In this document: positions 5,339-52,549 of the stretch, in pieces
How positions within the stretch are numbered: the stretch's first letter is position 1
How the letters are laid out: each line of letters starts with the position of its first letter
From: an uncultured Lachnospiraceae bacterium
GTDB taxonomy: Bacteria; Bacillota; Clostridia; Lachnospirales; Lachnospiraceae
Direction of reading: 5' to 3'
NCBI GenBank assembly: GCA_900316625.1
Contig: ONDO01000007.1
Location: forward strand, 24,028-88,027
Length of the DNA stretch: 64,000 bases
Made by a program: the position numbers and the translations under genes
The notes under the pieces: generated by a model
Seen by the model: only the letters and a program-made list of their open reading frames with translations
Database searches by the model: none
What the model was told of the DNA's origin: nothing

Positions 5339-5467
5339 GATACTCGGCATCACGTTATAAATTGCGGCGTGAAACCCGCAGGCCTGCCCGTGGAAGCAGT
5401 CAGTTCCATGAAAGATCGGATGCCGCTTGGCCTGTGGCATTCCGGGATGAATCTAAGGAGAGAATTG

Positions 5468-7240
5468 GTGAAGAAGGAACAGCGCTGGTTTATCAAGCAG
5501 AAGAAGGTCGATTTTCTTTCCATAGCAGAGAGACTTGGAGTGGACCCTCTTATCGTTCGTCTGATGACGAATCGTGATATCGAACCTGAAGATATGGAGT
5601 CCTACCTGCATCCGGTTCGGGAAGATCTTCATGATCCACATCTGTTACATGATGGTCAAAAGACTGCTGAATATCTTGCAGACGCCATCCATAGAGGGAA
5701 GAAGATCCGTGTGATCGGCGATTATGATATCGATGGTATTATGGCTACCTACATTCTGCACACTGCTCTTCTAAGGGTTGGGGCAGATGCTTCCTGGGCT
5801 ATTCCGGATCGTATCCGTGATGGCTATGGACTGAATCCTGTACTGGTGGAAGAAGCAAGAGCAGATGGGGTAGAAGTGATCCTTACCTGCGATAACGGTA
5901 TTGCAGCAGGAACTGCAATCCAGGTCGCAAGAGATGCGAAAATGACTGTTCTCGTAACGGATCATCATTCAATTCCCATGGAAGGAGAGGAAGAAGTTCT
6001 TCCGAATGCGCATGCGATTGTGAATCCCCATCTGAAGGATTGTCAGTACCCCTTTCCGGATCTCTGTGGTGCAGCGGTTGCCTGGAAGATCGTTTTCCTT
6101 CTCTATGAAGTCTGTGGCCTCGATGTGAATCTTGCCTGGGAGTACCTTGAGAATGCTGCTTTTGCCACCATTGGCGATGTGATGCCTCTGGTTGGCGAGA
6201 ATCGTGCCATTGTAAAACTTGGCTTAGAGTCTCTAAAGCGTACGGAGAATATAGGAATGCGTGCGCTCTTCGAAGAGACCAAGACCGAGATGGAGGCTGT
6301 GAATTCCTACCTCATCGGCTATGTATTAGGCCCCTGTATCAATGCATCCGGAAGAATCGCTTCAGCCAGGCTTGGTGTAGAACTCTTAGAGTGTAGTAAT
6401 CAGGCGGATGCGAAGTCGCTTGCGGTCGAACTGGTTAAACTGAACGAAGAACGCAAGGATATGACGAAGACAGGAACAGATCATGCGAGAAGCATGTCCG
6501 AAGAAGAGCCTTATGTGGGTGACAAGGTCCTTGTTCTCTATGAAGAAGGAATCTCAGAGTCTGTTGCCGGAATTGTGGCAGGACGGATTCGTGAGGAGAG
6601 CGGGAAACCAACCCTGGTTCTTACCAGGAGTGAGAACGATCCATGCATGGCCAAGGGAAGCGGCAGATCTATTCCGGCTTACTCCATGTTTGAACGACTG
6701 TCAGAGGCCAGAGATATCATGGATCATTTCGGAGGACATCCTATGGCGGCTGGTCTGACGCTGCCTATCGACAGGGTGGATCAGTTAAGACTCTTTTTGA
6801 ACGAACATTGTGGTCTTACAGAGGATGATCTGATGGAAGAGGTCATGATCGATGCGAATATGCCATTCTCATATGTGCAGCAGCATCCGAATGTGATCAG
6901 CGAACTTAATCTCTTAGAACCCTTCGGTAATGGGAATTCGAAGCCGCTTTTTGCTCAGAAGGGACTTAAGGTCCTTCGGATGAAGACCATCGGTAAGGAG
7001 GGACAGTACCTGAAGTTTACATTGGGAGCGGAAGACGGTTCTAAGGTGGATGCTCTATATTTCTCCGACGGAGAGGGCTTTAAGAAGGATCTGATGGACC
7101 GATTCGGTGAAGAAGAAGTGAAGAAGGCAGAATGGGGCAAACCCAACCGGATCGAGCTGATGATGACCTATTATCCTTCCATCAACGAGTATAACAATGT
7201 GCGCACCGTGCAGGTAATCATCAATGATTACAGATTCTGA
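5468..7240 (+). CDS. recJ: Single-stranded-DNA exonuclease RecJ
   Basis: A DHH-family 5'-3' single-strand DNA exonuclease used in recombination and repair. Metal-binding motifs are all present: GDYDIDGIMATYIL (motif I), CDNGIA (II) and VTDHH (III), then NPH and CGAAVAWK. The DHHA1-like and OB regions follow. I choose the GTG at 5468, because AAGGAG at 5455-5460 is 7 nt upstream and the protein then starts MKKEQRWF, normal for the family, giving 590 residues. An ATG at 5369 would add 33 unusual residues without a ribosome site. Confidence 0.9.
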   Translation: MKKEQRWFIKQKKVDFLSIAERLGVDPLIVRLMTNRDIEPEDMESYLHPVREDLHDPHLLHDGQKTAEYLADAIHRGKKIRVIGDYDIDGIMATYILHTALLRVGADASWAIPDRIRDGYGLNPVLVEEARADGVEVILTCDNGIAAGTAIQVARDAKMTVLVTDHHSIPMEGEEEVLPNAHAIVNPHLKDCQYPFPDLCGAAVAWKIVFLLYEVCGLDVNLAWEYLENAAFATIGDVMPLVGENRAIVKLGLESLKRTENIGMRALFEETKTEMEAVNSYLIGYVLGPCINASGRIASARLGVELLECSNQADAKSLAVELVKLNEERKDMTKTGTDHARSMSEEEPYVGDKVLVLYEEGISESVAGIVAGRIREESGKPTLVLTRSENDPCMAKGSGRSIPAYSMFERLSEARDIMDHFGGHPMAAGLTLPIDRVDQLRLFLNEHCGLTEDDLMEEVMIDANMPFSYVQQHPNVISELNLLEPFGNGNSKPLFAQKGLKVLRMKTIGKEGQYLKFTLGAEDGSKVDALYFSDGEGFKKDLMDRFGEEEVKKAEWGKPNRIELMMTYYPSINEYNNVRTVQVIINDYRF

Positions 7241-7268
7241 TTGCCTGTAGTCGGGGCACGAGTCACTC

Positions 7269-7297
7269 TTGCAGACAGAGGCAAGAAACAGTAAAAT
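7269..7297 (+). promoter_or_regulatory. Probable promoter of the chemoreceptor-like gene
   Basis: TTGCAG (7269-7274) and TAAAAT (7292-7297) with 17 nt between them, about 40 nt before the next start codon. Confidence 0.45.
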
Positions 7298-7338
7298 TTA
7301 TATGTTAAAAAGACTTAATTTCCTGGAAGGAGAATCTC

Positions 7339-8286
7339 TTGTTCGGCAAGAAGAAATCTCTAGAAAATGATGAAAAAGAACGCAGAGAAAACGCTGTTCG
7401 GCATGCGCTTGAGCTATCCGGAAGGACCTGCTCGGATCTTCTCTTAGATATTGATCAGGCTTCCATGCAGGCTTTCACCCACGGGGAAGAGCTGAAGAAG
7501 GCGGATGATTTCCGCAATCAGGCTGCAGCGGATCAGGAGAAGACCAAGGAGACTCTCCTTCGTGCGAGCGAGAAGACGGCTCTCTCTGGTGAGAGCCTGG
7601 AGCGTGAGCATGCGGCCCTGGAGTCGGCCAGTCAGGCTCTAAGGCAGGATAAGGATGCTGTGACAGAGATGATCGAGAATGGTCGTCATTCCACAGATAT
7701 CGCCAAGAATCTCTTCGCCTCGGCGGATTCTCTTAAGGATCGTGCTCATGCGATGACAGAGACCGTGGACCAGATGGAAGTGATGGGGAGGAACATGTCC
7801 GTTCTCGCTCTCAACAGTGCCATCGAGGCAGGACGTCTGGGCGCGGGGAGTGAGCGATATGTACAGGCTGCTGAGCAGGTTCGTAATTATGCAGAGCAGT
7901 ATGGCACGGCAGCTCGTGAGATCGGTGTGACACTGAAGGAACTAAACGAAGCCTTCGAGTCCCTGACGGAGACCTGCAAGAGGGTAACAGACCTGCAGAT
8001 GAAGAACAGTGTTCTTCTGGGCAAAACCCTGCAGAGACTGACGGATGATGAGAATGCTGCAAGGAAGGCAATCACATCTCGTGAGGACATGGAGACGATT
8101 GCTTCCCTTCGTGCAGAGATGGAAGAACTTCTGGCACTTCGGGAAGAGACATCTTCCTTACTCTCGAATCTGAAGGAAGAGATGGATAAGACCGGCGAGG
8201 GCCTCATGGAAGGTCGTAGCACCTGCCAGAATATGGAAGAGCGTGTGAAGAAACTTCAGGAGAGCCTGAAGGAGACAGCAGAATAA
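7339..8286 (+). CDS. Soluble methyl-accepting chemotaxis-like signalling protein
   Basis: 315 residues, almost entirely helical coiled coil. The stretch MSVLALNSAIEAGRLG and the following QAAEQVRNYAEQY match the hairpin tip of the chemoreceptor signalling domain (LLALNAAIEAARAG, VVAEEVRKLAE), where CheA and CheW bind. There is no membrane helix, HAMP or ligand domain, so it is cytosolic and its input is unknown. The start is TTG, with GGAAGGAG 6 nt upstream. No che or flagellar gene is in the window. The next hydrolase gene follows after 10 nt, so the two are probably co-transcribed. Confidence 0.7.
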   Translation: MFGKKKSLENDEKERRENAVRHALELSGRTCSDLLLDIDQASMQAFTHGEELKKADDFRNQAAADQEKTKETLLRASEKTALSGESLEREHAALESASQALRQDKDAVTEMIENGRHSTDIAKNLFASADSLKDRAHAMTETVDQMEVMGRNMSVLALNSAIEAGRLGAGSERYVQAAEQVRNYAEQYGTAAREIGVTLKELNEAFESLTETCKRVTDLQMKNSVLLGKTLQRLTDDENAARKAITSREDMETIASLRAEMEELLALREETSSLLSNLKEEMDKTGEGLMEGRSTCQNMEERVKKLQESLKETAE

Positions 8287-8296
8287 GGGGGATACT

Positions 8297-9247
8297 ATGG
8301 CAGTAAGAGAAGAGTATTATTATGAGTCTTCGGATGATCAGAAGACCAGAATCCATGCAGTGAAGTGGACACCGGAAGATGGTAAGATCCGTGGTGTATT
8401 ACAGATCTGTCACGGAATGCAGGAATATATCGATCGTTATCAGGAATTCGCTGAATTCATGACCTCTCAGGGATTCGCTGTCGTAGGACATGATCATATC
8501 GGTCATGGACAGTCTGTGGCTTCTCGTGAGGAACTTGGTATCATGCACACGGATCATCCTGCTGAGACCATGGTAGAGGATATCTTCAAGAACTTCCTGA
8601 TCAACAGAGAGCAGTATGCGAATGTTCCTTACTTCATTCTGGGTCATTCCATGGGCTCCTATCTTCTTCGTATGCTTCTGGTTCTGAAGGCAGAAGAACT
8701 GAAGGGTGTGAATGGTGCCATTATTATGGGTACCGGTACAGAAGATGATGGAACCATCAAGGCTGGTCGCATGGTCGTTAACATGGTAGGTGGCTTAAGA
8801 GGCTGGGATCATAAGTCCAAGTTCATTGCCAACCTCATGTTCTCCAAGCCTTATAAGCAGTATGATGTCACTGGCGCACATCCTGAGAACAGCTGGCTGT
8901 CGAAGAATGTAGAGAATGTCAAAGCCTATTATGCAAATCCTCTGGATAACTATATGTTCTCTGTGAATGGATATCGTGTGCTTCTTACAGCCACTCTTTT
9001 CGATAACCAGGTAGAGAATATTGCAAAGATGAACAAGGATATGCCCATCCTCTTCGTATCCGGAGACGGAGATCCGGTCGGTAACCTTGGTGTTGGCGTG
9101 AGAGAAGCGTATGTTCGTTTCGTTAAGAGTGGCATCAAAGATGTCTCCATGCATCTCTTCCATGGAGATCGTCATGAGATCTTAAATGAGACCGATCGTG
9201 AGCAGGTTCGTGCCTACATCATGGACTGGGTAGAGAAGCATATCTAA
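8297..9247 (+). CDS. Alpha/beta hydrolase, lysophospholipase/monoacylglycerol lipase-like
   Basis: 316 residues without signal or membrane segment. LQICHGMQEYIDRY, then GHDHIGHGQS and the nucleophile GHSMGSYLLR are typical of the Hydrolase_4/PldB group. The acid is in FVSGDGDPVG and the histidine in GDRHEILNE, completing the triad. It probably releases fatty acid from lysophospholipid or monoacylglycerol, an inference from family only. It begins 10 nt after the chemoreceptor-like gene, with AAGGGGG as ribosome site. It converges on the membrane-protein gene on the opposite strand. Confidence 0.78.
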   Translation: MAVREEYYYESSDDQKTRIHAVKWTPEDGKIRGVLQICHGMQEYIDRYQEFAEFMTSQGFAVVGHDHIGHGQSVASREELGIMHTDHPAETMVEDIFKNFLINREQYANVPYFILGHSMGSYLLRMLLVLKAEELKGVNGAIIMGTGTEDDGTIKAGRMVVNMVGGLRGWDHKSKFIANLMFSKPYKQYDVTGAHPENSWLSKNVENVKAYYANPLDNYMFSVNGYRVLLTATLFDNQVENIAKMNKDMPILFVSGDGDPVGNLGVGVREAYVRFVKSGIKDVSMHLFHGDRHEILNETDREQVRAYIMDWVEKHI

Positions 9248-9279
9248 GAGAATAAGATCTAAGAGAAGCTTATCTAAGA

Positions 9280-10320
9280 CTACACCTTACGACTGAGGAA
9301 GGCCCATATTTTCCGAAGGAAGATGAGATCTCCCTGACGGGCTTCGATCCGGCGACGGTTCTCTTCGGAGAAACCGACGTAGATGTTGTGGTTGGCTTCG
9401 GACAGATAGTCCATAATACCGTCGATGTCCGTCTTGGTGTTCTTAGGACAACGGATGTAGCGGTGACGCTCTGCATTGATATAGAGCGTATATGAGATGC
9501 TGAAGTGGTGCCAGAGAATCTTATGCAGGGTAGAGTACTTGTAGATCCAAAGGATGCGGTCGATGGGAACCAGAGCGACACCATCCTTGGTGGTTTCGAT
9601 GAAGTAGTGCTCAGTGATGAACATATCCTCGGTTGCTAACTGGGGCAGGGTGGCGAGTTCATCTTCTGCTTCTTCGAGAATCTCCTTGGGATTACCATAG
9701 ACACTGAGTCTTCGGATCGGGCGGGAGAATTCCGGCTTTATGATACTGATCGTTGAGATGAGAATCGTTACGACTGCCAGGGCGATGGAAATGAGAAGGA
9801 AGAAACGTAAGAAATCCGTCATCAGGCCATTGGCGTCACTCTCACTTAGCATATATGGGCTGACTGCATCGCGGATCCCGGCATCGTTCCAGGTGAGGTC
9901 GTGGGCCAGGTTGGTAAGAAGCATGTCCATAGCTTTGGAATCCCGGATGATGCGGTAGTCACCGGAAAGGCTCTCGATATAGCTAAGACCCATCTGAGAG
10001 GATCTGGGGGAGAGCAGGACGATAAAGCACTTACCTCCACGCATGGTGTAGTAATAGTAGCCTGTGGTGTTACCCAGGAAGTTTCTGGTATAGCCGGTGA
10101 AGTAGAGCTCTCGAAGATCTGCAGTCACGTACTTGATATTCTGATTGTACATGTTCTCCGGATCTACATCAGAAGTCATCTGCATGGGATGCAGGAGGCT
10201 TAAAATGGGGAAAAAAAAGGATAAAACAACAAGCCCTGCAAGAAAAATTAGTGCAGAGTTCCTCTTTCGTTTATAATAAGCTTGTATGCTTGATTTAATA
10301 TGATTATCATTCGGTGTCAT
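9280..10320 (-). CDS. Two-helix membrane protein, unknown function
   Basis: 346 residues with membrane helices near residues 22-42 and 170-192. The roughly 125-residue segment between them probably lies outside the cell; the remaining C-terminal part is probably cytosolic. The C-terminal part (ITEHYFIETTKDGVALVPIDRILWIYKY) looks like a small beta-rich PH-like fold. I recall similar Lachnospiraceae proteins under a DUF6709 label, but I am not sure of this. No catalytic motif is visible. It is divergent from nadE, its start being about 50 nt from nadE. Confidence 0.6.
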   Translation of the reverse strand: MTPNDNHIKSSIQAYYKRKRNSALIFLAGLVVLSFFFPILSLLHPMQMTSDVDPENMYNQNIKYVTADLRELYFTGYTRNFLGNTTGYYYYTMRGGKCFIVLLSPRSSQMGLSYIESLSGDYRIIRDSKAMDMLLTNLAHDLTWNDAGIRDAVSPYMLSESDANGLMTDFLRFFLLISIALAVVTILISTISIIKPEFSRPIRRLSVYGNPKEILEEAEDELATLPQLATEDMFITEHYFIETTKDGVALVPIDRILWIYKYSTLHKILWHHFSISYTLYINAERHRYIRCPKNTKTDIDGIMDYLSEANHNIYVGFSEENRRRIEARQGDLIFLRKIWAFLSRKV

Positions 10321-10372
10321 AGCAATAAGTATAGACCCGATTGTGATTTGTTGTAAAGGAAAGAGGAAGGAT

Positions 10373-12277
10373 ATGAGGGACGGTTTTTTAAGAGTCAGTG
10401 CCGTAACACCACATATGGCAGTTGCCTATGTACCTGCGAATGGAGAAGAAATCCGTGCACGTATGTTAGAGGCTGTTCAGGACGGGGCGAAGGTAGTTGT
10501 CTTCCCGGAATTATGCCTTACGGGATATACCTGTCATGATCTCTTCTTCCAGCAGACACTTCTGTCAGCTGCAGAGGAAGAATTAAAGAAGTGTGCCCAC
10601 CTTACGGAAGAACTCGACGGCATCTTCTTCTTGGGACTTCCCTATCGTTATAAAGGAAAACTCTACAATGTCGCAGCAGCCATAAACCGTGGCAGAATTC
10701 TGGGCCTGGTTCCGAAGACCAATCTGCCCAACTACCATGAATTCTATGAGAGAAGACAGTTCACACCCGGTTTCCGTACTCCTGTGGAAGTGGAGATTGC
10801 CGGGCAGAAGACGAAAATGGGCACGGACCTTATCTTCAAGTGTGACTGTGTGAAGGAACTTCGCATCGGTGTAGAGATCTGTGAGGATCTCTGGGTTCCT
10901 GATCCGCCCAGTGTCCGCCATGCTATGGCTGGTGCCAATGTGATCGTTAACCTGTCTGCATCCAATGAGATTACCGGCAAGGCAGATTATAGAAGAAGCC
11001 TTGTAACCGGCCAGTCCGCAAGACTCTACTGTGCTTATATCTATGCATCTGCCGGCATCGGAGAATCCACCCAGGATCTGGTCTTCTCCGGACATGATCT
11101 GATCGCAGAAGCAGGACGTCTTCGCGTAGAGAATCCCAGATACAGAGAGGGCATCATCTCTTCGGAGATCGATCTTGCAGCCCTGACTGCTTATCGCAGT
11201 CAGATGTCTACCTTCGATATCGAAGAAGAGGAAGAGGAGATTCTCTTCACTCTGAGCGAGGAGGAGACAAGGCTTACTTCTCCGGTGGATCCGGCACCCT
11301 TTGTTCCCCATGATGAGAAGAAGCTGTCCCAGCGTTGTTCTGAGATTCTTGATATTCAGGCCTATGGTCTGAGAAAACGCCTGCAGCATACCTATTCCAA
11401 GAAGGCTGTGATTGGCATCTCCGGAGGACTGGATTCCACCCTGGCACTTCTGGTTACCGCAAGAGCCTTCGATCTTCTGAATCTGGACCGTAGCGGTATT
11501 ATCGCTGTTACCATGCCAGGCTTTGGCACGACAGACCGTACCTATCAGAATGCGCTCTCTATGATCCGCTCTCTGAAGGCCACACTGAAGGAGGTGTCCA
11601 TTGTTCCGGCGGTAAATCAGCACTTCTCAGACATCGGTCAGGATCCGGAAAAGCACGATGTAACCTATGAGAATTCCCAGGCTCGTGAGAGAACCCAGAT
11701 TCTTATGGATATTGCGAATAAGGAAGGCGGCATGGTCATCGGTACCGGAGACCTGTCAGAACTTGCCTTGGGCTGGGCAACTTATAATGGAGATCATATG
11801 TCCATGTATGCAGTGAATGCCTCTGTCCCTAAGACTCTGGTTCGCTTTCTGGTTCGCCATGTTGCAGAGGAAGCGGATGCGGATCTGAAGAAGGTGCTCC
11901 TCGATGTATTAGATACACCGGTAAGCCCGGAACTTCTGCCTCCTAAGGATGGTGTGATCAGTCAGATCACAGAGGATCTGGTTGGACCTTACGAATTGCA
12001 TGACTTCTTCCTTTACTATGTGATGCGATTTGGCTTTCGTCCCAGGAAGATCTACCGCCTGGCACAGAATGCCTTTGAAGGTGCTTATGACAGGGAGACG
12101 ATCCTGAAGTGGATGAAGATATTCTATCGTCGATTCTTCAGCCAGCAGTTTAAGAGAAGCTGCCTGCCGGATGGGCCAAAGGTTGGTTCCGTTGCTCTGT
12201 CTCCACGTGGTGACTGGCGTATGCCTAGTGATGCAGTTTCTTCCATCTGGCAGAGAGAAGTAGAGGAACTGTCCTAA
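10373..12277 (+). CDS. nadE: Glutamine-dependent NAD+ synthetase
   Basis: About 634 residues; makes NAD+ from deamido-NAD+, ATP and glutamine. An N-terminal nitrilase-like glutaminase carries Glu in FPELCLTGY, Lys in VPKTNLPNY and the nucleophile Cys in GVEICEDLW. The C-terminal synthetase carries the PP-loop [13 protein letters not shown] and [12 protein letters not shown]. Ammonia is thus channelled from glutamine. I choose the ATG at 10373 behind GAGGAAGG; a GTG at 10343 has no ribosome site. It stands alone between a divergent membrane-protein gene and a strong terminator. Confidence 0.93.
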
Positions 12278-12310
12278 ACAGGAAGTCTGATCGCTGTAAG
12301 GATGCGAAAA

Positions 12311-12344
12311 AGGTCTGTGAAGAACTTCTTCACAGACCTTTCTT
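12311..12344. terminator. Bidirectional terminator between nadE and the PAP2-like gene
   Basis: A 13-bp perfect stem, AGGTCTGTGAAGA (12311-12323) with TCTTCACAGACCT (12327-12339), has a 3-nt loop. TTCTTA follows on the + strand and TTTTTC on the - strand, so it can end both converging transcripts. Confidence 0.85.
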
Positions 12345-12374
12345 AGATTATGTTTTACATTTCCCGAAGGGGTA

Positions 12375-13121
12375 TTAGGCTTCGCTGGATAGATTCTTGG
12401 CCTCCGGCGTGGAACTTAAGCTGACATCGGAATCGAACTTCCTTGCAGTACGGAAGATCCAGCCGTTAGCAGGACCGTAGGTGATGATTCCAACCACAAG
12501 CTGCAGTGCGATACCAGCCATGAGGTCAATAATGGAATGTTGCTTGATGAAGAGGGTGGCGAGAAGGATCAGAATCATGAGGATGAAGGAATTCCTTCTG
12601 GCTCTCTTATGGGTACGGAAGAACTCGGTCTGGCACATTCCCCAATGCATGCCGATGGAATCATAGACATGAATGCTGGGCAGGACATTGGTCGGTGTAT
12701 CTGTCATGTAGAGGAAAGCAACCAGTCGGGTGAAGATATTGTCTCTTGGCATTACCGTGGGTCGGATCGCAATGGCGTTGGGCCAGACGTAGGATACGAT
12801 AATGAAGAGGGTCATGCCGATGGCAAGATTCAGTCCTAAGGGATAATAATATCTTCCGTCCTTTTTGAAGATGGTATAGGCGATGCCATAGGTCAGATAT
12901 CCAAACCATGCCAGGTAGGGAAGAACGAAGATTTCGATAAAGGGAATCTTATCATCCAGTGAAGTGTTCAGATAATGGAAATTCGAGTCTGTGATGCATT
13001 CTGCCATATGGAAGAAGTAGAGATAGATGGGAATGTAGAGGAGCGTCAAAAAGCGCCATTTATGTTCACGCATAAATTGAAATAAGTACCGAATCTTAGA
13101 CATTTTAAAATACGCTTTCAT
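12375..13121 (-). CDS. PAP2-like (inositolphosphotransferase-type) membrane phosphatase
   Basis: 248 residues with about six membrane helices. The PAP2 catalytic signature is in its variant form: PSIHVYDSIG replaces the usual PSGH block, and KQHSIIDLMAGI supplies the second histidine and the aspartate. This form is typical of the PAP2_3/Aur1-like branch, which transfers or removes phosphate on lipid head groups at the membrane. The substrate is not evident; an undecaprenyl- or phospholipid-phosphate role is inference. No clear ribosome site precedes the ATG at 13121, and an internal ATG six codons later is an alternative. It stands alone, convergent with nadE. Confidence 0.7.
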   Translation of the reverse strand: MKAYFKMSKIRYLFQFMREHKWRFLTLLYIPIYLYFFHMAECITDSNFHYLNTSLDDKIPFIEIFVLPYLAWFGYLTYGIAYTIFKKDGRYYYPLGLNLAIGMTLFIIVSYVWPNAIAIRPTVMPRDNIFTRLVAFLYMTDTPTNVLPSIHVYDSIGMHWGMCQTEFFRTHKRARRNSFILMILILLATLFIKQHSIIDLMAGIALQLVVGIITYGPANGWIFRTARKFDSDVSLSSTPEAKNLSSEA

Positions 13122-13290
13122 AACAAAATTGTGCCCCGAATACTTTAGCAGAGCATCTATGGAAAGTAAATGGAAAACATGGTATATTTCATTATATATT
13201 CTTTTTTGAATTTTGCTAGATTCTGTTCAATTGCAGGGGGACAGGTTAAGGCGAATGTATGGATTGCTTACATAATAGCAGGGGGCAATG

Positions 13291-15267
13291 ATGAAGAAAA
13301 AATATACCGTGGGTGTAATGATCGGCAATATTCATACAGATCATCCGGGACGACTCTTCCGTACCATCTATAATGAGATGGAGAAGGTTGAGGATACGGA
13401 AGTCCATTATTATATTGGTACGGAGGCCGACAGTTTCCTCCGCGAGATATCAACGGCGGATTCTGACTTCGATTACCAGTACTATACCCTCTATGACTAT
13501 TCCAGTTTTCTGAATCTGGATCTTCTCATTGTTGCTTATGGTTCCATTCATATCTATCACAGCAAGGCGAGCCATGAGGATTTTCTGTCCAGATTCCCTG
13601 ATATTCCCATCATCTTCCTAGAGGAACCATCCCAGGGAGAAGAGAATGTCTATTCGATGATTGCAGATAATTATGGCGGTATGACCAAGTGTATCGAGCA
13701 TCTGATTACGGTTCATGCTTATCAGAATATCGTCTTTCTGGCAGGCCCCGAAGGTAATACAGACGCGGAAGAACGCCTGGAGGCGTATCGGGATACCATG
13801 CAGGCTTATGGTCTCGAAGTGACGGAAGAGATGGTAGAGCATGGGGATTATTCGGAGAATGTGGATGCCCAGGTTGAGAGGCTCCTGGAGAACAATCCGG
13901 ATATCGAAGCGATTGCAAGTGCTAATGATGAGATGACAGTTGCAATCTATAGAGTGCTGAAGAAGCATGGTCTTAAGGTGGGCGTCGATGTTGCCGTGAC
14001 AGGCTTTGATAACATGGAGATGGCAAGCTATTGCAAGCCTGCCCTTACCACGGTATGGCAGAATACTGATGCCATGGGTAAGAAGTGCTGCCAGATGGCA
14101 AGACAGATTCTCGAGGGAGAAGAGTGTACTTCCGGGAAACTGCCTGTGGAACTGATTATCAGGGGTTCCTGCGGATGTGCTTATAACTCCAAGAATCTCG
14201 TGAATTACGGTACCATGAACTCTTTGCAGAGCAGAGATGTTATCGATGTTGTCTCCAGTCTGCAGCAGGTACAGCATCAGTCCTGGGTTGCACCTCTTTT
14301 TGCAAGAACTCTGATACAATCCACGGGCAGCCGTAAGGAATTCTTCCATCAGGTGGGAAATCAGCTCAAGCAGCTTGGAACCCGTTCTTCTTATCTCTTC
14401 TTACTGAAGAAACCGAGGGAAGTGGAGAAGGATTCTCCTCTGCGAGCACCGCGGGGGCTATATCTTGTCATGTCTCAGATAGGAAGTAAGATCGAAACCT
14501 ATGAAGGCCATAAGGCGAAGAAGGTTTCCAGAGGCGGATTCGATCTGCTTTCGGGACAGGATGAGAATGCAAGACAGTATGTCTCTTTCCTTCTCTTTGA
14601 TGGTAAGGTTCAGTATGGTGTTCTGAAACTCGAGATTCGGGCAGAAGATGCATCCATCTATTACATGGTTGCCCTTCAGCTCGGAATCGCGATTCGATTC
14701 CTGGAGATGTCCGAGATACAGGAAGAGTATCGTTATGAACTCCAGAAGCAGAATGATCAGCTGGAATTCGCTGCAACCCATGATGTTCTGACCGGAATCC
14801 TCAATCGTCAGGGTGTCTTCCATGAGCTCGAATCCTTTGTGCGTCTACATCGCAAGGATAAGATGATAATCTTCATGGCAGATCTGGACCATCTGAAACA
14901 GATCAATGATACTTTTGGCCATAGCGGTGGTGATCAGGCCCTTCTCCAGGTGGCAAAGACGCTGACAGAGAAGCTTGGTAAGAAGGCAGTTGTAGGAAGA
15001 TTCGGTGGTGACGAATTCGCAGGAATTCTAGTCTCTAGTGGTAAGGATGCAATGCAAAAACTAGAGGATAGTATTCATGGCTCCTGTGAAGAGTTCAATG
15101 ATATCAGTGAGCTGCCCTTCTATGTGAACATCTCCCTGGGTTGTGTGGAATTCGAATTCAATGAGAATGTAGATTTTCAGGAACTCTTAAAAGAAGCAGA
15201 TGACAAGCTCTATGAAGCCAAGAAGAAGAGGAGAGCATCTGTGATCCGTGGAGAGATGAATGGATGA
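13291..15267 (+). CDS. Soluble LacI-type sensor fused to a GGDEF diguanylate cyclase
   Basis: About 658 residues. Residues 1-300 resemble the sugar-binding core of LacI/GalR regulators (VGVMIGNIHTDHPGR, then VTGFDNMEMASYCKPALTTV) but without a DNA-binding headpiece. A middle region of about 170 residues may be GAF-like. A GGDEF domain lies at about 490-650: THDVLTGILNRQG, ADLDHLKQINDTFGHSGGD and the active loop GRFGGDEF. There is no membrane helix, and no RxxD inhibitory site five residues before GGDEF. It would make cyclic di-GMP in response to a cytosolic small ligand. GGGGG lies 5 nt before the ATG at 13291 and 2 nt before one at 13288. Confidence 0.83.
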   Translation: MKKKYTVGVMIGNIHTDHPGRLFRTIYNEMEKVEDTEVHYYIGTEADSFLREISTADSDFDYQYYTLYDYSSFLNLDLLIVAYGSIHIYHSKASHEDFLSRFPDIPIIFLEEPSQGEENVYSMIADNYGGMTKCIEHLITVHAYQNIVFLAGPEGNTDAEERLEAYRDTMQAYGLEVTEEMVEHGDYSENVDAQVERLLENNPDIEAIASANDEMTVAIYRVLKKHGLKVGVDVAVTGFDNMEMASYCKPALTTVWQNTDAMGKKCCQMARQILEGEECTSGKLPVELIIRGSCGCAYNSKNLVNYGTMNSLQSRDVIDVVSSLQQVQHQSWVAPLFARTLIQSTGSRKEFFHQVGNQLKQLGTRSSYLFLLKKPREVEKDSPLRAPRGLYLVMSQIGSKIETYEGHKAKKVSRGGFDLLSGQDENARQYVSFLLFDGKVQYGVLKLEIRAEDASIYYMVALQLGIAIRFLEMSEIQEEYRYELQKQNDQLEFAATHDVLTGILNRQGVFHELESFVRLHRKDKMIIFMADLDHLKQINDTFGHSGGDQALLQVAKTLTEKLGKKAVVGRFGGDEFAGILVSSGKDAMQKLEDSIHGSCEEFNDISELPFYVNISLGCVEFEFNENVDFQELLKEADDKLYEAKKKRRASVIRGEMNG

Positions 15268-22623: not shown

Positions 22624-24063
22624 ATGGAAGAGGAGACATATCCTTTGAACATGAACCTGATTACAAGCATAGAATCCCTCGAAAATGAAGAACGTCCCCA
22701 TCTTGTGGTGGACATCCGTTCCGCGGAAGACTTCCATAAGGAGACCTACCCTAAGGCCAGGAATCTTCACTTTGAAGAATTCCCTTCGGATCCTGCGGAG
22801 ATTATGAAGACTCTGACCTCTCTTGCAGAAGTCACCATCGACAATATGATGTTTGAGGAGGACAGACCCGCCCGCGTGCCAGTCTATCTTCTCTGCTATA
22901 CCGGAGAACAGTCAGAGCGCATCGCTGAGAATCTGCAGAAGTACCATATCGAAGCATATTCCATCGAAGGCGGCTGGCAGTCCTACCTGAGACTGGAGAT
23001 GAAGCGTCTCTTGGATGGGGTTGCACCCAAGGCAGAAGAGAAGCATGAGGAAAACTTCCCCACAGCAGACAAGGTCACAGCAGCCGATCCCACAGCAGAC
23101 GACCCCACAGCAGACAAGCTCACAGCAGCCGACCTCACAGAAGAAGAACTTGAAGGTCTTAGTCATAAGCAGAAGAAATACCTTCGCATGTCTTATGCAG
23201 AGAAGGTCGAGCAGTCCATCCGCAAGAAGTTCAAGAAGACCATCTGGCGCAGATTCACCAAGGCGATCAAGGAATATGACCTGATCCAGCCGGGAGATAA
23301 GATTGCGGTCTGTGTCTCCGGTGGCAAGGACTCCATGCTCCTGGCCAAGCTCTTCCAGGAACTGTCCCGCCATGGCATTCAGAACTTCGAAGTGGTCTAT
23401 CTGGTCATGAATCCAGGGTATAACGACATCAATGCAAAGACCATCGAGCAGAACGCAAAGAAGCTCAATATCCCGATCACCGTCTTCCATACCTCCATCT
23501 ACGATATCGTCGCAGGCGATGCAGGGTATGACGGATCCGGATCTCCTTGTTATCTCTGTGCCCGCATGCGTCGCGGCTGGCTCTATCACAAGGCACAGGA
23601 ACTCGGCTGTAATAAGATCGCACTCGGTCATCACTTCGATGATGTCATCGAGACGACCCTGATGGGCATGCTCTATTCCGGACAGATCCAGACCATGATG
23701 CCCAAGCTGAAGTCCACCAATTTCCCTGGCATGGAACTGATCCGTCCCATGTATTACATCCGTGAACAAGACATCATCCACTGGAGAGATTACAATGACC
23801 TGCACTTCATCAACTGTGCCTGCCGTCTGACCGAATCCTGCGCAAGCTGCGGTGGTACCGAGCAGGGCAGTAAGAGAGCAGAAGTGAAGCGCCTGATCGC
23901 TTTCCTCGAGAAGAGGGATGCCATGGTTGGCATCAATCTCTTCCGTTCCATGCAAAATGTGGCAATGCCCATGATCCTGGGATATAAGACCGCTGATGGC
24001 GTGCATCACAGCTTCCTCGACAACTACGACGATGCGAAAGCATCGAAGGAGGGGGAAGAGTAG
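22624..24063 (+). CDS. Rhodanese-TtcA fusion, probable tRNA thiolation enzyme
   Basis: 479 residues. Residues 25-130 form a rhodanese domain (VVDIRSAEDFHKETYPKARN) with an active-site loop YLLCYTGEQSERIAENL. A charged linker at about 145-170 repeats TAD/TAAD units. Residues 190-470 match TtcA: PP-loop CVSGGKDSMLLAKL, CxxC in SPCYLCARMRRG, GHHFDDVIETTLMGMLY, and a third Cys in INCAC. TtcA makes 2-thiocytidine at tRNA position 32 using an iron-sulfur cluster. A fused rhodanese would deliver persulfide sulfur directly. The start is uncertain: the ATG at 22624 has no good ribosome site, while TTG 22645 has GAGGAG 9 nt upstream. Confidence 0.8.
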   Translation: MEEETYPLNMNLITSIESLENEERPHLVVDIRSAEDFHKETYPKARNLHFEEFPSDPAEIMKTLTSLAEVTIDNMMFEEDRPARVPVYLLCYTGEQSERIAENLQKYHIEAYSIEGGWQSYLRLEMKRLLDGVAPKAEEKHEENFPTADKVTAADPTADDPTADKLTAADLTEEELEGLSHKQKKYLRMSYAEKVEQSIRKKFKKTIWRRFTKAIKEYDLIQPGDKIAVCVSGGKDSMLLAKLFQELSRHGIQNFEVVYLVMNPGYNDINAKTIEQNAKKLNIPITVFHTSIYDIVAGDAGYDGSGSPCYLCARMRRGWLYHKAQELGCNKIALGHHFDDVIETTLMGMLYSGQIQTMMPKLKSTNFPGMELIRPMYYIREQDIIHWRDYNDLHFINCACRLTESCASCGGTEQGSKRAEVKRLIAFLEKRDAMVGINLFRSMQNVAMPMILGYKTADGVHHSFLDNYDDAKASKEGEE

Positions 24064-24144
24064 GTCTCGCTTTACATTTCCCGAGGGGAGAAGTTGCGAA
24101 TAATAGAAAAGGCCGTTATAATCAAGGATTGGAGGGCTTATGCC

Positions 24145-24762
24145 ATGGAGATTGAGAGGAAATTCCTGATTCCGGTCCTGCCTGTGGACCTGGAAGAATA
24201 TCCACATTACGGCATCGAACAGGGTTACCTGTCGACATCACCGGTTCTGCGCATTCGTGCGACGACCAAGCCGGTTCTCCCTACGGGAAATGTAGAGCGA
24301 ACCCGTAAGATTGCAGCCAAGCTGCCGTCGGACGTGAGTGTGAACGAAGATACCTATACGGTTGTGTATAAGTCGGGTGGCCTGATGGCACACATCGAAG
24401 AGACCATGCCTCTTACCAGGGAATCCTATGCCCATCTGAAAACCAAGGCAGACGGCAAGGTGATCGAGAAGGTTCGTTATGTGATCCCCTTAGAGGATGG
24501 ATATCGCATGGATGCTGACCGAAGAAGGGACGCAGGACTCCCTGCCCAGGATCCCATTGATCCGCCGGCCAAGGACCTGAGGATCGAGCTTGACCTCTTC
24601 CGGAATGTCGAAGAAGCAGATGGAAGCCTGCTTCAGATGGCTGAGGTGGAGTTCCCGACGGAAGAAGCAGCACTGCGCTTCATCGCACCGGACTGGTTTG
24701 GAAGAGAAGTGACGAACGATACCCGTTATCATAACAATACGATGAGCGAGCAGCTCTCGTAA
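24145..24762 (+). CDS. CYTH-domain (triphosphate tunnel) protein
   Basis: 205 residues beginning MEIERKFLIP, the ExExK signature of CYTH proteins. Further charged strands (VLRIRATTKP, VVYKSG, EKVRYVIP, LRIELDLF, MAEVEFPTEEAA) build the tunnel that binds triphosphate and metal. Members act as inorganic triphosphatases, thiamine triphosphatases or class IV adenylate cyclases; I cannot choose among them. The ATG at 24145 sits 8 nt after GGAGGG and restores the normal family start, so earlier starts are rejected. It lies between ttcA-like and DJ-1 genes in the same direction. Confidence 0.82.
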   Translation: MEIERKFLIPVLPVDLEEYPHYGIEQGYLSTSPVLRIRATTKPVLPTGNVERTRKIAAKLPSDVSVNEDTYTVVYKSGGLMAHIEETMPLTRESYAHLKTKADGKVIEKVRYVIPLEDGYRMDADRRRDAGLPAQDPIDPPAKDLRIELDLFRNVEEADGSLLQMAEVEFPTEEAALRFIAPDWFGREVTNDTRYHNNTMSEQLS

Positions 24763-48019: not shown

Positions 48020-49708
48020 ATGCTAATTCGTCTTACAGTTGAAAATCTGGCACTGATCGAGCGGGAAGAGATCGAACTTACGGAGGGACTGAATGTCCTG
48101 ACCGGTGAAACCGGTGCAGGTAAGTCCATCCTCCTCGGAGCACTCGGTCTTGCCCTCGGCGGAAAGGCACAGAAGGATATCATCCGTGACCCTGCAAGGG
48201 ATGCCTTTGTAGAAGCTGTTTTCTCTGCAGATAATCCCGCTGTGGTAGAGGCCCTTCGTCTGCTTGATGTTGAAGTCTATGATGACCAGGTGATCCTCTC
48301 CCGCAGGATCGGTGAGACTAGATCATCGGCCAAGATTAACGGAGAGAGTGTACCTTCTCCCAAGCTTCAGAAGGTTGGAGAAGTTCTGATCGATATCTAT
48401 GGTCAGCATGAACATCAGTCCCTCCTGAAGAAGAAAAAACACATGGAGCTTCTGGATCGTTTTGCAAAGGATGCTCTAGGTGATAAGAAGAAGGAACTAA
48501 GCAGGCTCTACCGCGAATGGGTGGAGAAGACCAGGGAACTCGAAGAAGCCAACATGGATTCTTCCGACCGTATCAGAGAAGCTTCCTTCCTGGAGCAGGA
48601 GATCAGTGAGATCAGGGATGCAAATCTTCGCCCCGGAGAAGATCAGGAAGTAGAAGATCATTTCCGCCGCATGAAGAACAGCGAGAAGATTGCATCAGCA
48701 CTGAATGCTGCATATGAGCTGACGGGGGGAGACCAGGCAGCGTCTGATCTGATAGGTTCTGCTCTCCATGAAGTGTCTTCCGTGGAAGAATATGATGAAG
48801 AGAATCTGTCCGGTATGAGAAGCCTGCTCTCTGATTGCGATGGCCTCATCTCGGACTTCAATCGCGAACTCCGCGCATACATTGACCAGATGGAATTCGA
48901 TGAAGAAGAATTCCGTACGACAGAGTCCAGACTCGACCTCCTTAATACCCTGAAATCCCGTTATGGCAATACCATTGAAGCCGTCCAGGAAGCCCTTCAG
49001 AAGAAGGAAGAACGTCTAAGCAAACTGCAGGATTACGATGGTTACTTAGAGAGACTGCGTGAAGAAGTGAAGGCAGCAGAAGAGAGACTGCTTTACATTT
49101 CCAGAGAGGTATCGCAGATTCGTGCCGATCAGGCCAAGGTCCTGACCCGGGCGGTAAGCGATGCCCTAAGAGACCTGAATTTCCTCGATGTTCGCTTCGA
49201 GATGGAACTTCTGCCCATGGATCACTTCACGGCAGATGGTATGGATGATGGCCAGTTCATGATCTCTACTAACCCCGGAGAACCCATTCGTCCTCTGATG
49301 GATACGGCATCCGGTGGTGAATTATCCCGCATTATGCTCGCGATAAAGACCGTCCTCGCAGAAGAGGACTCCATCGATACCCTGATTTTCGACGAGATCG
49401 ACTCCGGAATCAGCGGACGTACCGCCCAGATGGTATCCGAGAAGCTCGCCGAACTTGCCCGCAAGCATCAGGTTATCTGCATCTCCCACCTGCCGCAGAT
49501 TGCGTCGATGGCAGATGCACATTTCCTCGTCGAGAAATGTGTAACAGACGGAAGCACCCTGTCTTCCATCCACATGCTCGATCCTCTAAGTCGGGTATCG
49601 GAACTTGCGAGAATGCTCGGCGGAAGCGAGATCACGGACGCTGTACGCATGAATGCAGAAGAGATGCTTGCCCTCGCAGATAAGAGAAAGGCAAGCAAAA
49701 TGAAATAG
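48020..49708 (+). CDS. recN: DNA repair protein RecN
   Basis: 562 residues, SMC-like. Walker A is TGETGAGKSILLGAL, followed by coiled-coil arms (about 150-370), the signature TASGGELSRIMLAIK and Walker B TLIFDEIDSGISG. RecN gathers at double-strand breaks and helps bring ends together. It closes the cluster, as in many Bacillota, where argR-recN is a usual pair. Confidence 0.94.
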   Translation: MLIRLTVENLALIEREEIELTEGLNVLTGETGAGKSILLGALGLALGGKAQKDIIRDPARDAFVEAVFSADNPAVVEALRLLDVEVYDDQVILSRRIGETRSSAKINGESVPSPKLQKVGEVLIDIYGQHEHQSLLKKKKHMELLDRFAKDALGDKKKELSRLYREWVEKTRELEEANMDSSDRIREASFLEQEISEIRDANLRPGEDQEVEDHFRRMKNSEKIASALNAAYELTGGDQAASDLIGSALHEVSSVEEYDEENLSGMRSLLSDCDGLISDFNRELRAYIDQMEFDEEEFRTTESRLDLLNTLKSRYGNTIEAVQEALQKKEERLSKLQDYDGYLERLREEVKAAEERLLYISREVSQIRADQAKVLTRAVSDALRDLNFLDVRFEMELLPMDHFTADGMDDGQFMISTNPGEPIRPLMDTASGGELSRIMLAIKTVLAEEDSIDTLIFDEIDSGISGRTAQMVSEKLAELARKHQVICISHLPQIASMADAHFLVEKCVTDGSTLSSIHMLDPLSRVSELARMLGGSEITDAVRMNAEEMLALADKRKASKMK

Positions 49709-49776
49709 GTTATTGTTACTTCATTTGCTTTATTTTCAGTCGTTGTATCGGTATTTGAAGAAGGGGGAATCTTCTT

Positions 49777-51351
49777 ATGGCAAAGCAGCCTGTTACAAAA
49801 GGTATTGAAAAAACAACCAGTATAAAGAAAGAGGAGAAGTTCATCAAGATTCCTGCCATAGATGAACTGCGTCAGGTATGTTCTGTCCGCGCAATGGAAC
49901 TCTATGGGAAGAAGTTCCCGGAGATTGTGGAAGCCAGAATGGACCGGGAACTCGATATGATCGATGAGCAGGGGACGGCCGACTTCTATCTGTCGGCACG
50001 TGAACTCTCCATATCAGCGAGAAAGCAGACCATACCGCTCTGTTTCCGTGGTCCCATTACCGGATCACTGGTCTCCTTCCTGGCACAGATCGCTTATATC
50101 AATCCGCTGCCTCCGCATTATTACTGCCCCAACTGTAATAGTTCGGACTTCCCGAGGAATCTTCAGAAGAGCCTGCATTGTGGTCTGGATCTGCCGGACA
50201 GAGTCTGCCCGGTCTGTGGTAAGCCCATGCGTAAGGATGGTTATGATCTTCCGGTGGAGATCGCTTTTGGAGCCAGAGGAGAGCATATGCCGGTTCTCTC
50301 TCTTGAGACTATTCCGGACTTCTTCACCAAGGCCATGCCGGAAGGTTACGAGAAGGAATATGATGAATTCGCTATCCTTGATTCCGATGTGATCGAAGGA
50401 GATGAGGAAGCGGATCGTTACTTTACGGAGAAAGAAGAGTCCCTTCTATTAGACCAGATGGAAGATAATCTGTATCATTCCATCGGTTGTACGGAACCGA
50501 ATATGCGTAAGGTACATATCGTAAAGAAGGGAGAGAAGAATGAACTGGTCCGCATCCTCTGCGTTCTTAGTCCGAATCTGGAATTCCTCTATTCTCTCAT
50601 GAAAGTGACACATATTGATCCTAGATTTGCTTTCTTCGGTGATCCTAAGACATTCGGCCTCTTCAAGGGAAGCGATTCCGTTGGACTCCCCAAGGATGTG
50701 CTAGGTTACAGCTATGGAACACTGGGGGTTCCCATCTATTCCTCGCCGAAACTTGAATCCCTACTTAATAATGTGACTCTGAACCGCTTTTCCGACCTGA
50801 TTCGTATGACCGGTCTATTCCTGGGTACCGGAACCTGGATTGAAAATGGTGATTACCTCCTGAGGGAGAAGATTGCATCTTATGATGACCTGATTGCCTC
50901 AAGGGATGATCTCTTCGAATGCCTGATGCGGCATGAATACACAGCAGAGCATGCCATCGATGTGTGCAAAGTGGTATGGAATGGCCATCATCTGACGGAG
51001 GCCATGGAGCAGGAGATGGAGATGAGGGGGATCCCTGATTTCGCTATCGAGTCCATCAAGTGCATCCGCACCCTCTATTCCAGGGCTCAGATTATCTATC
51101 AGAATGGTGTGGCATGGCAGGCTGCCTGGTATAAGACCTATTACCCCAGAGAATTCTATCGCACCTTCTTTGAGGTCTTTGCGACAGAAGAACAGATGCA
51201 GAATATCCGCAGGGGAAGACAGTATATAGAGGCCCTGCTTGATGAGACGGATCCGGATACCCTGAGGGATCTGGGAAAACCCAGCCGTCCGGAATACCGT
51301 ATCTATCTGACAGCGAGAGAGATGTATCTTAGAAATTATACGCTCATGTGA
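49777..51351 (+). CDS. PolC-derived protein lacking polymerase active site
   Basis: 524 residues that align by eye with the C-terminal half of PolC, the Gram-positive replicative polymerase. Residues 60-120 match the palm entry (FRGPITGSLVS) and INPLPPHYYCPNC; four Cys (117, 120, 144, 147) keep the zinc knuckle. Where PolC has its catalytic VPDIDLNFSGE, this protein has MPVLSLETIPD (171-181), so both Asp are lost. Residues 290-345 retain the DP/FG and GTLGVP region, and 350-465 match the SGLSHGT to HHPLLYY stretch (here TGLFLGTGTW, YYPREFY). There is no PHP or exonuclease domain. It cannot polymerise; a clamp-, DNA- or partner-binding role is inference. Confidence 0.75.
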   Translation: MAKQPVTKGIEKTTSIKKEEKFIKIPAIDELRQVCSVRAMELYGKKFPEIVEARMDRELDMIDEQGTADFYLSARELSISARKQTIPLCFRGPITGSLVSFLAQIAYINPLPPHYYCPNCNSSDFPRNLQKSLHCGLDLPDRVCPVCGKPMRKDGYDLPVEIAFGARGEHMPVLSLETIPDFFTKAMPEGYEKEYDEFAILDSDVIEGDEEADRYFTEKEESLLLDQMEDNLYHSIGCTEPNMRKVHIVKKGEKNELVRILCVLSPNLEFLYSLMKVTHIDPRFAFFGDPKTFGLFKGSDSVGLPKDVLGYSYGTLGVPIYSSPKLESLLNNVTLNRFSDLIRMTGLFLGTGTWIENGDYLLREKIASYDDLIASRDDLFECLMRHEYTAEHAIDVCKVVWNGHHLTEAMEQEMEMRGIPDFAIESIKCIRTLYSRAQIIYQNGVAWQAAWYKTYYPREFYRTFFEVFATEEQMQNIRRGRQYIEALLDETDPDTLRDLGKPSRPEYRIYLTAREMYLRNYTLM

Positions 51352-51427: not shown

Positions 51428-52399
51428 ATGCGAGAAGAAGAGTACTTAAAGCAGAATGCGATCATTAAGGAGGCAATCCACGCTGATCGCGAGGACCATA
51501 ATAAGGATAACTATGCGAAGGTGATCGGATCTGTCGGAGCAAGAATGCATGCTGACTCTTCCTTCCTCGTTCCTGTGGAATTCCGTAAGGGTGAGAAGGA
51601 ATCTATGCTGATCCGGATCCTGAATGGACAGGATGGCAGGAAGGCATTAGGTGTCTTCACCGATGGAGAAGAAGCGAAGAAGAAGAATCCCACTGACCTC
51701 TATGCAATGCCCATTGCAGAGATTCTCTCTTATTTCCTCGAAAATGAAGAGCTTGATGCAGTTCTGATCAATCCTTGGGGAGAGCCCTTCCCTCTGGTTC
51801 GTGAAGCGGTAAAGAATCTTCTTGATTATGAGAATAAGGTTTGCATGCCTTATAAGGGAATCAAGGTGAATATCGGAGATATCACCAATCTTTCATGCTC
51901 CGCGATCGTTAATTCCGCGGATCCTCTTTTTGCCGAGGGCGATGGTGTGGATCATGCCATCTATCAGAAGGCCGGTAACGACCTGATGAAGCTGCTTGAT
52001 TTGATCGGATCCTGTAAGATGGCAGAAGTGAAACTGACACCTGCCTTCAATCTTCCCCAGCGCTTCATCATGCATACCGTAGGACCGGTTTGGTCTGGCG
52101 ATGATGAAGAGAAGGATTGTGAGAATCTGAAGGCTTGTTATACCAACTGCCTGAATGAAGCGAAGAAGCATAAGCTTCGTTCGATCGCTTTCCCTGCAAT
52201 CTCCTGTGGTGCGTCCGGCTTCCCGATGGAACTCGGTGCCAAGGTTGCTGTAGAGGCTGTCCTCGAGTGGCTGACGAAGGAGAAGGACTATGCAATCACC
52301 GTTATCTTCGATCTGGTGGATCAGGCCAGCGCGGATGCTTATGTAGCTGTTCTTCCCAAAGCAGGGGATAGGGACAGCGTCGTAGCCCCTAGCAAATAG
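51428..52399 (+). CDS. SseB-like N-terminal domain fused to macrodomain
   Basis: 323 residues. Residues 1-135 resemble SseB (VIGSVGARMHADSSFLVPVEF, LGVFTDGEEA, AVLINPWGEPFPL). Residues 140-305 are a macrodomain: KVNIGDITNLSCSAIVNSAD, GDGVDHAIYQKAG and the phosphate loop PAISCGASGFP. Macrodomains bind ADP-ribose and often remove it from proteins, so a role in reversing ADP-ribosylation is possible. No ADP-ribosyltransferase is visible nearby. No strong ribosome site precedes the ATG. Confidence 0.8.
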   Translation: MREEEYLKQNAIIKEAIHADREDHNKDNYAKVIGSVGARMHADSSFLVPVEFRKGEKESMLIRILNGQDGRKALGVFTDGEEAKKKNPTDLYAMPIAEILSYFLENEELDAVLINPWGEPFPLVREAVKNLLDYENKVCMPYKGIKVNIGDITNLSCSAIVNSADPLFAEGDGVDHAIYQKAGNDLMKLLDLIGSCKMAEVKLTPAFNLPQRFIMHTVGPVWSGDDEEKDCENLKACYTNCLNEAKKHKLRSIAFPAISCGASGFPMELGAKVAVEAVLEWLTKEKDYAITVIFDLVDQASADAYVAVLPKAGDRDSVVAPSK

Positions 52400-52515: not shown

Positions 52516-52519
52516 CTTA

Positions 52520-52549
52520 TCCCTTGGGACATGTCCTGGGGGATTTTTT
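52520..52549 (+). terminator. Terminator after tRNA-Thr (CGT)
   Basis: TCCC with TTGGGAC pairs with GTCC-TGG-GGGA, including G-U pairs, followed by TTTTTT. The next 220 nt (52550-52769) are AT-rich and show nothing else I can support. Confidence 0.7.

Follow-up and report, generated by a model that had tools for sequence, protein, structure and literature searches.

PolC (G. kaustophilus, 3F2B; E. faecium, 9QPC) is the closest described relative of the protein reported here, which comes from an uncultured Lachnospiraceae bacterium and which we term mini-PolC. The palm-N block, the four-cysteine zinc knuckle and the fingers of PolC have homologous counterparts in the mini-PolC; the NTD/OB region, the PHP and Exo domains, the second palm half, the catalytic aspartates, the C-terminal HhH region and the clamp motif do not. 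An E. faecium PolC carrying D972A and D974A had no polymerase activity, according to the available portion of the report (PMC12592400). In the accessible parts of a 2013 survey of the C family, the three catalytic aspartates are described as absolutely conserved, PHP and (HhH)2 as nearly universal, and PolCs without Exo as restricted to Clostridia and Negativicutes, plus one additional Thermotogae copy (PMC3919608). By the same text, an intact active site was required and fragments without one were removed, so that dead members of the C family would have gone unseen there.

Members with an inactive polymerase have been described in the Y and X families (PMC12926913). In its available text this source mentions no C-family member whose polymerase site is inactive, and it discarded sequences that were truncated or strongly diverged before its trees were built. 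According to excerpts of the cited sources, ImuB resembles the mini-PolC as a non-catalytic relative of polymerases with a partner role (PMC3919608, PMC12926913), but it belongs to another polymerase family and is predicted to act via the beta clamp (PMC11791113), whereas the PolC clamp motif is absent here. PolX1 is similar in that the polymerase site is lost in some family members; unlike the mini-PolC, which has no PHP, it retains PHP nuclease function (excerpts of PMC12926913). The open-access literature searched, in part as excerpts, yielded no description of a dead polymerase of the C family, nor did we find a name in print for the accessory short PolCs of Lachnospiraceae described below.

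The mini-PolC gene and its lost active site

The mini-PolC gene lies in the window, by which we mean the entire 64,000-nucleotide stretch of DNA that was analysed. Its parts and its surroundings are as follows.

48020..49708, + strand: recN (named by eye), ending 68 nt 5' of the mini-PolC gene
49760..49769, + strand: likely ribosome binding site, purine-rich gaagggggaa, read directly, 7 nt 5' of the ATG
49777..51351, + strand: mini-PolC gene, 524 aa, without catalytic Asp; ATG start, no internal stop
49840..50094, + strand: PolC palm-N block, residues 22–106 (Pfam DNA_pol3_alpha match 30–112)
50095..50262, + strand: zinc-knuckle segment, residues 107–162, Cys 117/120/144/147; both copies retain 12 of the 16 PolC-invariant residues
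50287..50307, + strand: MPVLSLE in place of the PolC catalytic DxD motif, the Asp pair being replaced by Val173 and Ser175
50308..50589, + strand: remnant of the second palm half, residues 178–271, without HPGG; third Asp replaced by Leu261
50590..51345, + strand: fingers block, residues 272–523, its end corresponding to PolC model position 1359 of 1445
51428..52399, + strand: SseB N-terminal plus macro-domain protein, 76 nt 3' of the mini-PolC gene; same neighbour in the second species
52519..52544, + strand: terminator-like hairpin 3' of the macro gene (weak: 7 in the region against 4.0 expected)

The PolC model NF001688 matched the protein in two stretches (E 2e-79, 267.6 bits) and TIGR01405 did so at E 5e-74, while DnaE models reached E 4e-6 or weaker. 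PDB chain 3f2b (G. kaustophilus PolC) was matched by query residues 22–181 and 272–497 (E 6.5e-56), and profile-profile comparison with two PolC cores returned a probability of 100 over 470 columns at 29% identity. Homology to the PolC core is thereby evident, and it falls into two blocks, approximately residues 22–186 and 272–523. Pfam detected DNA_pol3_alpha (4.8e-12) and, below the cut-off, the finger domain (3.5e-4). The zinc knuckle (CPNC/CPVC) contains the four cysteines of PolC, and the score of 267.6 bits does not reach the NCBIfam equivalog cut-off of 873 for PolC.

The host genome assembly (1.93 Mb, 52 contigs, 83.65% complete) holds a DnaE frame of 1186 aa and, at a separate place, a full-length PolC frame of 1519 aa, to which the two blocks of the mini-PolC are 37% and 28% identical. 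A mis-split host polC is ruled out by this separate gene, chance similarity by the E-value against NF001688, and an assembly artefact by the identical gene order in a second assembly, ONDV01000024.1.

The PolC motif EPDIDLNF corresponds to MPVLSLET in the window protein and to DCLCLETI in its ortholog from a second species (see below), and the third-Asp motif LKLDILG reads VRILCVL and VRFTCVT, respectively. All three catalytic Asp are thus lost in both orthologs, and HPGG is absent. The motifs GSRGS, VRKG and FPKAHA, which we take to serve dNTP or primer contact, are altered in both copies. Neither a PHP nor an exonuclease family came up among the Pfam and NCBIfam models, the homology beginning after PHP. 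With a match that reaches only to model position 1359 of 1445, the protein lacks both the HhH region and the QLSLF clamp motif; in agreement, no Q[LIVM][ST]LF motif occurs in the last 60 residues.

The retained regions have not been kept evenly. Invariant columns were taken from 38 ordinary PolC rows, some of them cut by locus ends; one row (G028) stops inside the fingers, so that nothing past that point was eligible as an invariant column. Of the 150 invariant columns so defined, 125 fall within residues 28–523 of the window mini-PolC. Both mini-PolCs keep 11/27 in palm-N, 12/16 in the zinc segment, 1/42 in residues 163–275, and 7/20 and 5/20 in the first and second part of the fingers, where 8/20 and 12/20 are lost in both copies. 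Given these losses in the fingers, retention of the PolC fold is putative. With a net charge of −18 and a pI of 5.2 the protein is acidic, and we had considered this an argument against DNA binding; it was dropped since the host PolC is likewise acidic (net −54 over 1519 aa, pI 5.4), and net charge is no argument either way.

Most of what the original prediction had read from the letters is borne out by these data: the intact frame of 524 codons, the relation to PolC that a profile search was to reveal, the replacement of the Asp pair by MPVLSLE, to which the loss of the third Asp and of HPGG can now be added, and the absence of PHP and exonuclease domains. Its description of a match to the C-terminal half of PolC holds for the homology and the zinc knuckle; the word half does not, as the match stops short of the PolC C-terminus and the second palm half is lost. 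Because this C-family relative lacks features that belong to an active PolC, we call it a pseudo-polymerase, and that it is one within the C family is near-certain.

Conservation in the recN-macro slot

A 526-aa ortholog with 43% identity is found in a second species of the same genus (G001), likewise between recN and the SseB-macro gene, its start overlapping the recN stop by 4 nt. The same ORF occurs in ONDV01000024.1, from an uncultured Lachnospiraceae bacterium, isolate RUG211, in which RUG stands for rumen genome. The slot in G002, G004, G005 and G006 is occupied by a Crp/Fnr-like frame (by eye; the G005 stretch is without recN), and in G003, G007 and G008 the recN match and the macro match are only 105–223 bases apart.

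Identity at the three codon positions between the two species was used as a measure of selection, and seven genes were compared. For the mini-PolC it amounts to 57/63/32% at positions 1/2/3 over 503 aligned codons, with no stops in either copy; the corresponding values are 61/71/33 for recN and 61/69/36 for the macro gene. At the protein level the mini-PolC ranks lowest of the seven (43%), followed by the macro protein (45%), recN (54%), nadK (56%), polC (66%), dxs (69%) and argR (72%). As its third positions are saturated, a protein identity this high requires selection, and the mini-PolC is shown to be under purifying selection in two species. A neutral relic is at odds with the saturated third positions, the better kept positions 1 and 2 and the lack of stops. 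The original prediction had proposed selection for a non-catalytic role and a search among relatives for the same truncated gene after recN; the shared slot and the codon positions agree with it, and the only same-slot relative found, one ortholog, is also without the Asp pair whose presence in relatives would have spoken against it.

Spacing and the one terminator-like hairpin after the macro gene suggest that the mini-PolC is transcribed together with recN and the macro gene; no terminator-like hairpin was listed on the + strand between the recN stop and the macro start. Two patterns for LexA-like sites were tried. Allowing one mismatch, 26 sites were found against 22.6 expected, one of them inside recN; with the stricter pattern there were 3 where 9.5 would be expected, and none of these lay near recN. 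An SOS response or joint damage induction of recN and mini-PolC is therefore unsupported, there being no LexA-like signal above chance. No ImuB-type cassette was seen by eye among the neighbours of the mini-PolC.

Accessory relatives, distribution and origin

With a two-sequence profile (E 1e-50), the mini-PolC was found in two of the nine genomes of the genus, in at least 3 of 397 genomes of the family (the two just mentioned and G411), and in at least 1 of 392 of the order, the host's own only. A three-sequence profile (1e-68) matched at least 12 of 391 genomes of the class, 11 of which, all besides the host, contributed frames of at least 1255 aa. In the family, order and class surveys the first three candidates per genome were scored, so the counts are floors, and the samples overlap. 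At the thresholds used, no window-type gene was detected outside its own genus in the sampled genera; these thresholds were chosen so as to leave out full-length PolC, and the genus genomes are 79–96% complete, and minis may be missed. A single-sequence search of genome contigs with the mini-PolC gave no loci.

A scan of the family with the G745 protein as query, in which the first two candidates per genome were scored, matched 310 of 338 genomes; among the matches listed, nearly all were frames of full PolC size and one was a new accessory short protein (G361), in whose genus one of five genomes matched; the scan also brought up a second frame, of 1059 aa, in G112. Viral contigs yielded no loci with either the mini-PolC or the PolC-core profile, and five loci at 21–22% identity with the accessory short-PolC profile. 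By tblastn the mini-PolC hit 22 phage and 19 plasmid records; nine phage and plasmid records were examined, seven with frames of at least 1237 aa and two with shorter ones. One of the two, from a Lactococcus plasmid, has 865 aa and keeps the Asp. The other is a divergent PolC-like protein of 917 aa, annotated as hypothetical, on a Cetobacterium plasmid (NZ_CP143322.1:1-12371, 3768–6512); simple patterns found neither the Asp motif nor HPGG in it, for which it may be too divergent, and it may have either an altered active site or mere pattern-level divergence. PADLOC assigned no defence family to the mini-PolC or the macro protein.

Among 48 genomes of the genus of G411, 17 matched at 1e-60, and short PolC-like frames occurred only in G411 (556 aa) and G745 (846 aa), all other rows having at least 1465 aa. 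The accessory short PolCs of G745 (842 aa), G361 (837 aa) and G411 (555 aa) resemble the window protein in the absence of OB and Exo and in their C-terminal end, which lies at PolC model positions 1357–1359 in these three and in both mini-PolCs. The window protein ends just past the EMxxR motif and has neither OB nor Exo, the features by which the accessory lineage was defined. The accessory short PolCs differ in their active sites. The PHP-Pol3 protein of G745, adjoined by a WYL regulator (Pfam), keeps all three Asp. That of G361 (L121, G361:C18:1-14000, 5376–7889) has the same PHP-Pol3 layout with a PHP-like N-terminus and contains EPDFNINV and LKVNILS, with the first Asp kept and Asn in place of the other two; KptA-like and WYL-like genes were noticed nearby (both by eye). 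The G411 protein is trimmed like the window gene, but it has SCIDVNF, in which the first Asp is lost and the second kept, and no third Asp, and it stands in a replication-gene cluster. This cluster of trimmed replication-protein relatives (L059, G411:C14:112000-130000, 6444–13907) comprises a DnaE of 399 aa, two DnaA AAA+ pieces, a DnaB N+C fusion of 121 aa, the mini-PolC and a PcfJ-like protein; a tyrosine-recombinase-like gene is found near it (by eye).

Further PolC-like proteins were observed in other genomes. G012 has a second PolC-like gene (L036, G012:C57, 2112–4889) for a protein of 925 aa with a PHP motif and an exonuclease-like match; it keeps the Asp motifs, is without the zinc-knuckle segment and ends earlier at its C-terminus, and the gene after it gives a weak PafC-HTH match below the cut-off. 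G112 carries an extra PolC of 1057 aa (L122, G112:C9:55000-70000, 6071–9244), apparently without exonuclease (by eye), which groups with the PolC of plasmid pCY186 (support 100/99) and has a WYL-like gene near it (by eye). A 289-aa protein of G029 (L035, G029:C6:35000-42023, 4508–5377) shares the zinc-knuckle stretch of PolC only, with 37% identity over residues 81–152 of the window mini-PolC, and is possibly a separate reuse of the zinc knuckle.

Trimming of this kind is also seen in DnaE. On plasmid pCY186 of Butyrivibrio proteoclasticus B316, BPR_RS19035 (480 aa, annotated as hypothetical; L072, NC_014390.1:105000-145000, 23181–24623) is a cut-down DnaE without intact active site; the plasmid replisome genes around it comprise dnaB, dnaX, a full PolC and a DnaA/Hda-family gene. 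It has 34% identity over 370 columns to the DnaE piece of G411, and both are without PHP, have lost one Asp of the pair, show an in-frame loss across the third Asp and end after the fingers. Their likeness to the mini-PolC lies in this cut pattern; they differ from it in being of the DnaE type, in keeping one Asp of the pair and in their plasmid or cluster setting. In 12 chosen genomes a short DnaE frame was found only in G411, and none in the window's genome.

For the origin of the mini-PolC, trees were calculated with IQ-TREE on 375 columns of PolC-like proteins. The first tree left out 4 of 50 PolC-like ORFs (three shorter duplicate loci and the Cetobacterium protein), the second 4 of 48 rows (one Lactococcus plasmid, two phage rows and G028). 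In the first, the two mini-PolCs grouped with G411, G745 and the 925-aa protein of G012 (support 95/94) and not with the PolC of their own genus; in the second, with G361 added, they lay in an accessory clade (97/94), five of whose six members end at positions 1357–1359. The mini-PolC branches are very long. Descent from an accessory short-PolC lineage that would have lost catalytic residues repeatedly is moderately supported by these sequence comparisons, and it is favoured because the C-terminal end is shared, though not by the G012 protein. The same present-day protein might instead have arisen by duplication of the genus's own polC, an alternative we hold to be somewhat less likely than not: trees forcing the mini-PolCs together with the genus PolC are not rejected by the AU test (p-AU 0.283 for the first tree, 0.294 and 0.222 for the second), but the best trees place them in the accessory clade, and three of the four clade members from other genera have the C-terminal end in common, G012 ending earlier. 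The term paralogue in the original prediction is accordingly right about kinship with PolC and may be too narrow, in view of the accessory-lineage support of 97/94 and of p-AU values of 0.22–0.29 for the alternative.

Possible roles of the mini-PolC

The mini-PolC is probably used for something other than DNA synthesis. In the reading we prefer, to which as a whole we give a probability of about 0.43, the pseudo-polymerase is a non-catalytic scaffold that binds a partner. A PolC-type protein, trimmed to palm-N, zinc knuckle and fingers and with its catalytic palm half erased, may act as a scaffold or regulator. Through the face formed by zinc knuckle and fingers it would contact a protein of the replication and repair machinery, perhaps in the replisome or in RecN-linked repair. 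A scaffold or regulator fits best because neither the active site nor the clamp motif is left and the zinc knuckle is the best kept part, and a protein is preferred as partner over dNTP or a primer end because the motifs that serve these in PolC are altered. The position of recN 5' and of the macro gene 3' suggests a link to DNA repair. Of the partners named in the original prediction, the clamp is disfavoured by the absence of the QLSLF-bearing C-terminal region, with which the known PolC motif is gone, and DNA binding in the manner of PolC appears less likely with GSRGS, VRKG and FPKAHA altered. The lack of a LexA-like signal, the residues lost from the fingers and the different contents of the slot in the seven remaining genus genomes count against the scaffold reading. 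So do presence in two of nine genus genomes, the lowest conservation of seven genes and the long branches.

These last three observations would equally be expected of a recent relic of a duplicated polC that is still undisrupted. This explanation is largely refuted and deserves hardly any credence, as saturated third positions at 43% protein identity, the absence of stops, the same slot in both species and the selective retention of the zinc knuckle all contradict it. If the retained palm-N/fingers homology were instead to serve contacts of the PolC kind, the dead protein could be a dominant-negative brake that, in competition with the active enzyme, docks on primer-template DNA or on the partners of PolC, for instance to make forks pause during RecN-dependent repair. 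Its place beside recN in both species is compatible with this, as is the PHP-Pol3 layout of G361 with its Asp-to-Asn changes, which is what a non-catalysing binder would be expected to show, and acidity is no objection with a host PolC that is acidic too. The altered GSRGS, VRKG and FPKAHA motifs, the lost HPGG and the missing HhH/clamp region speak against such docking, and we consider a brake unlikely. Still less likely, in our judgement, is a decoy or guard, a look-alike that titrates or senses mobile-element or phage proteins attacking the host replisome. The company of the G411 mini-PolC (a mini-DnaE, two DnaA AAA+ pieces and a DnaB N+C fusion), the patchy distribution, and the regulators near accessory PolCs (WYL in G745, WYL-like by eye in G361 and G112, a weak PafC-HTH in G012) would suit it, but PADLOC gave no match, and the window copy sits in a housekeeping operon slot rather than in an island.

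Returning to the non-catalytic scaffold, a wider proposal, which we put forward tentatively, would be that Lachnospiraceae hold a class of C-family pseudo-polymerases drawn from both the PolC and the DnaE lines and cut down to palm-N/thumb and fingers, whose members may be non-catalytic regulators or decoys of the replisome; in the window lineage the recN operon would have taken up such a module, which would there assist in repair. Bench tests of the idea are within reach, since a related DnaE piece is present in a named strain, Butyrivibrio proteoclasticus B316, on its complete plasmid pCY186. A dead member that is maintained by selection means that the core of a replicative polymerase can have a separable, non-catalytic function.
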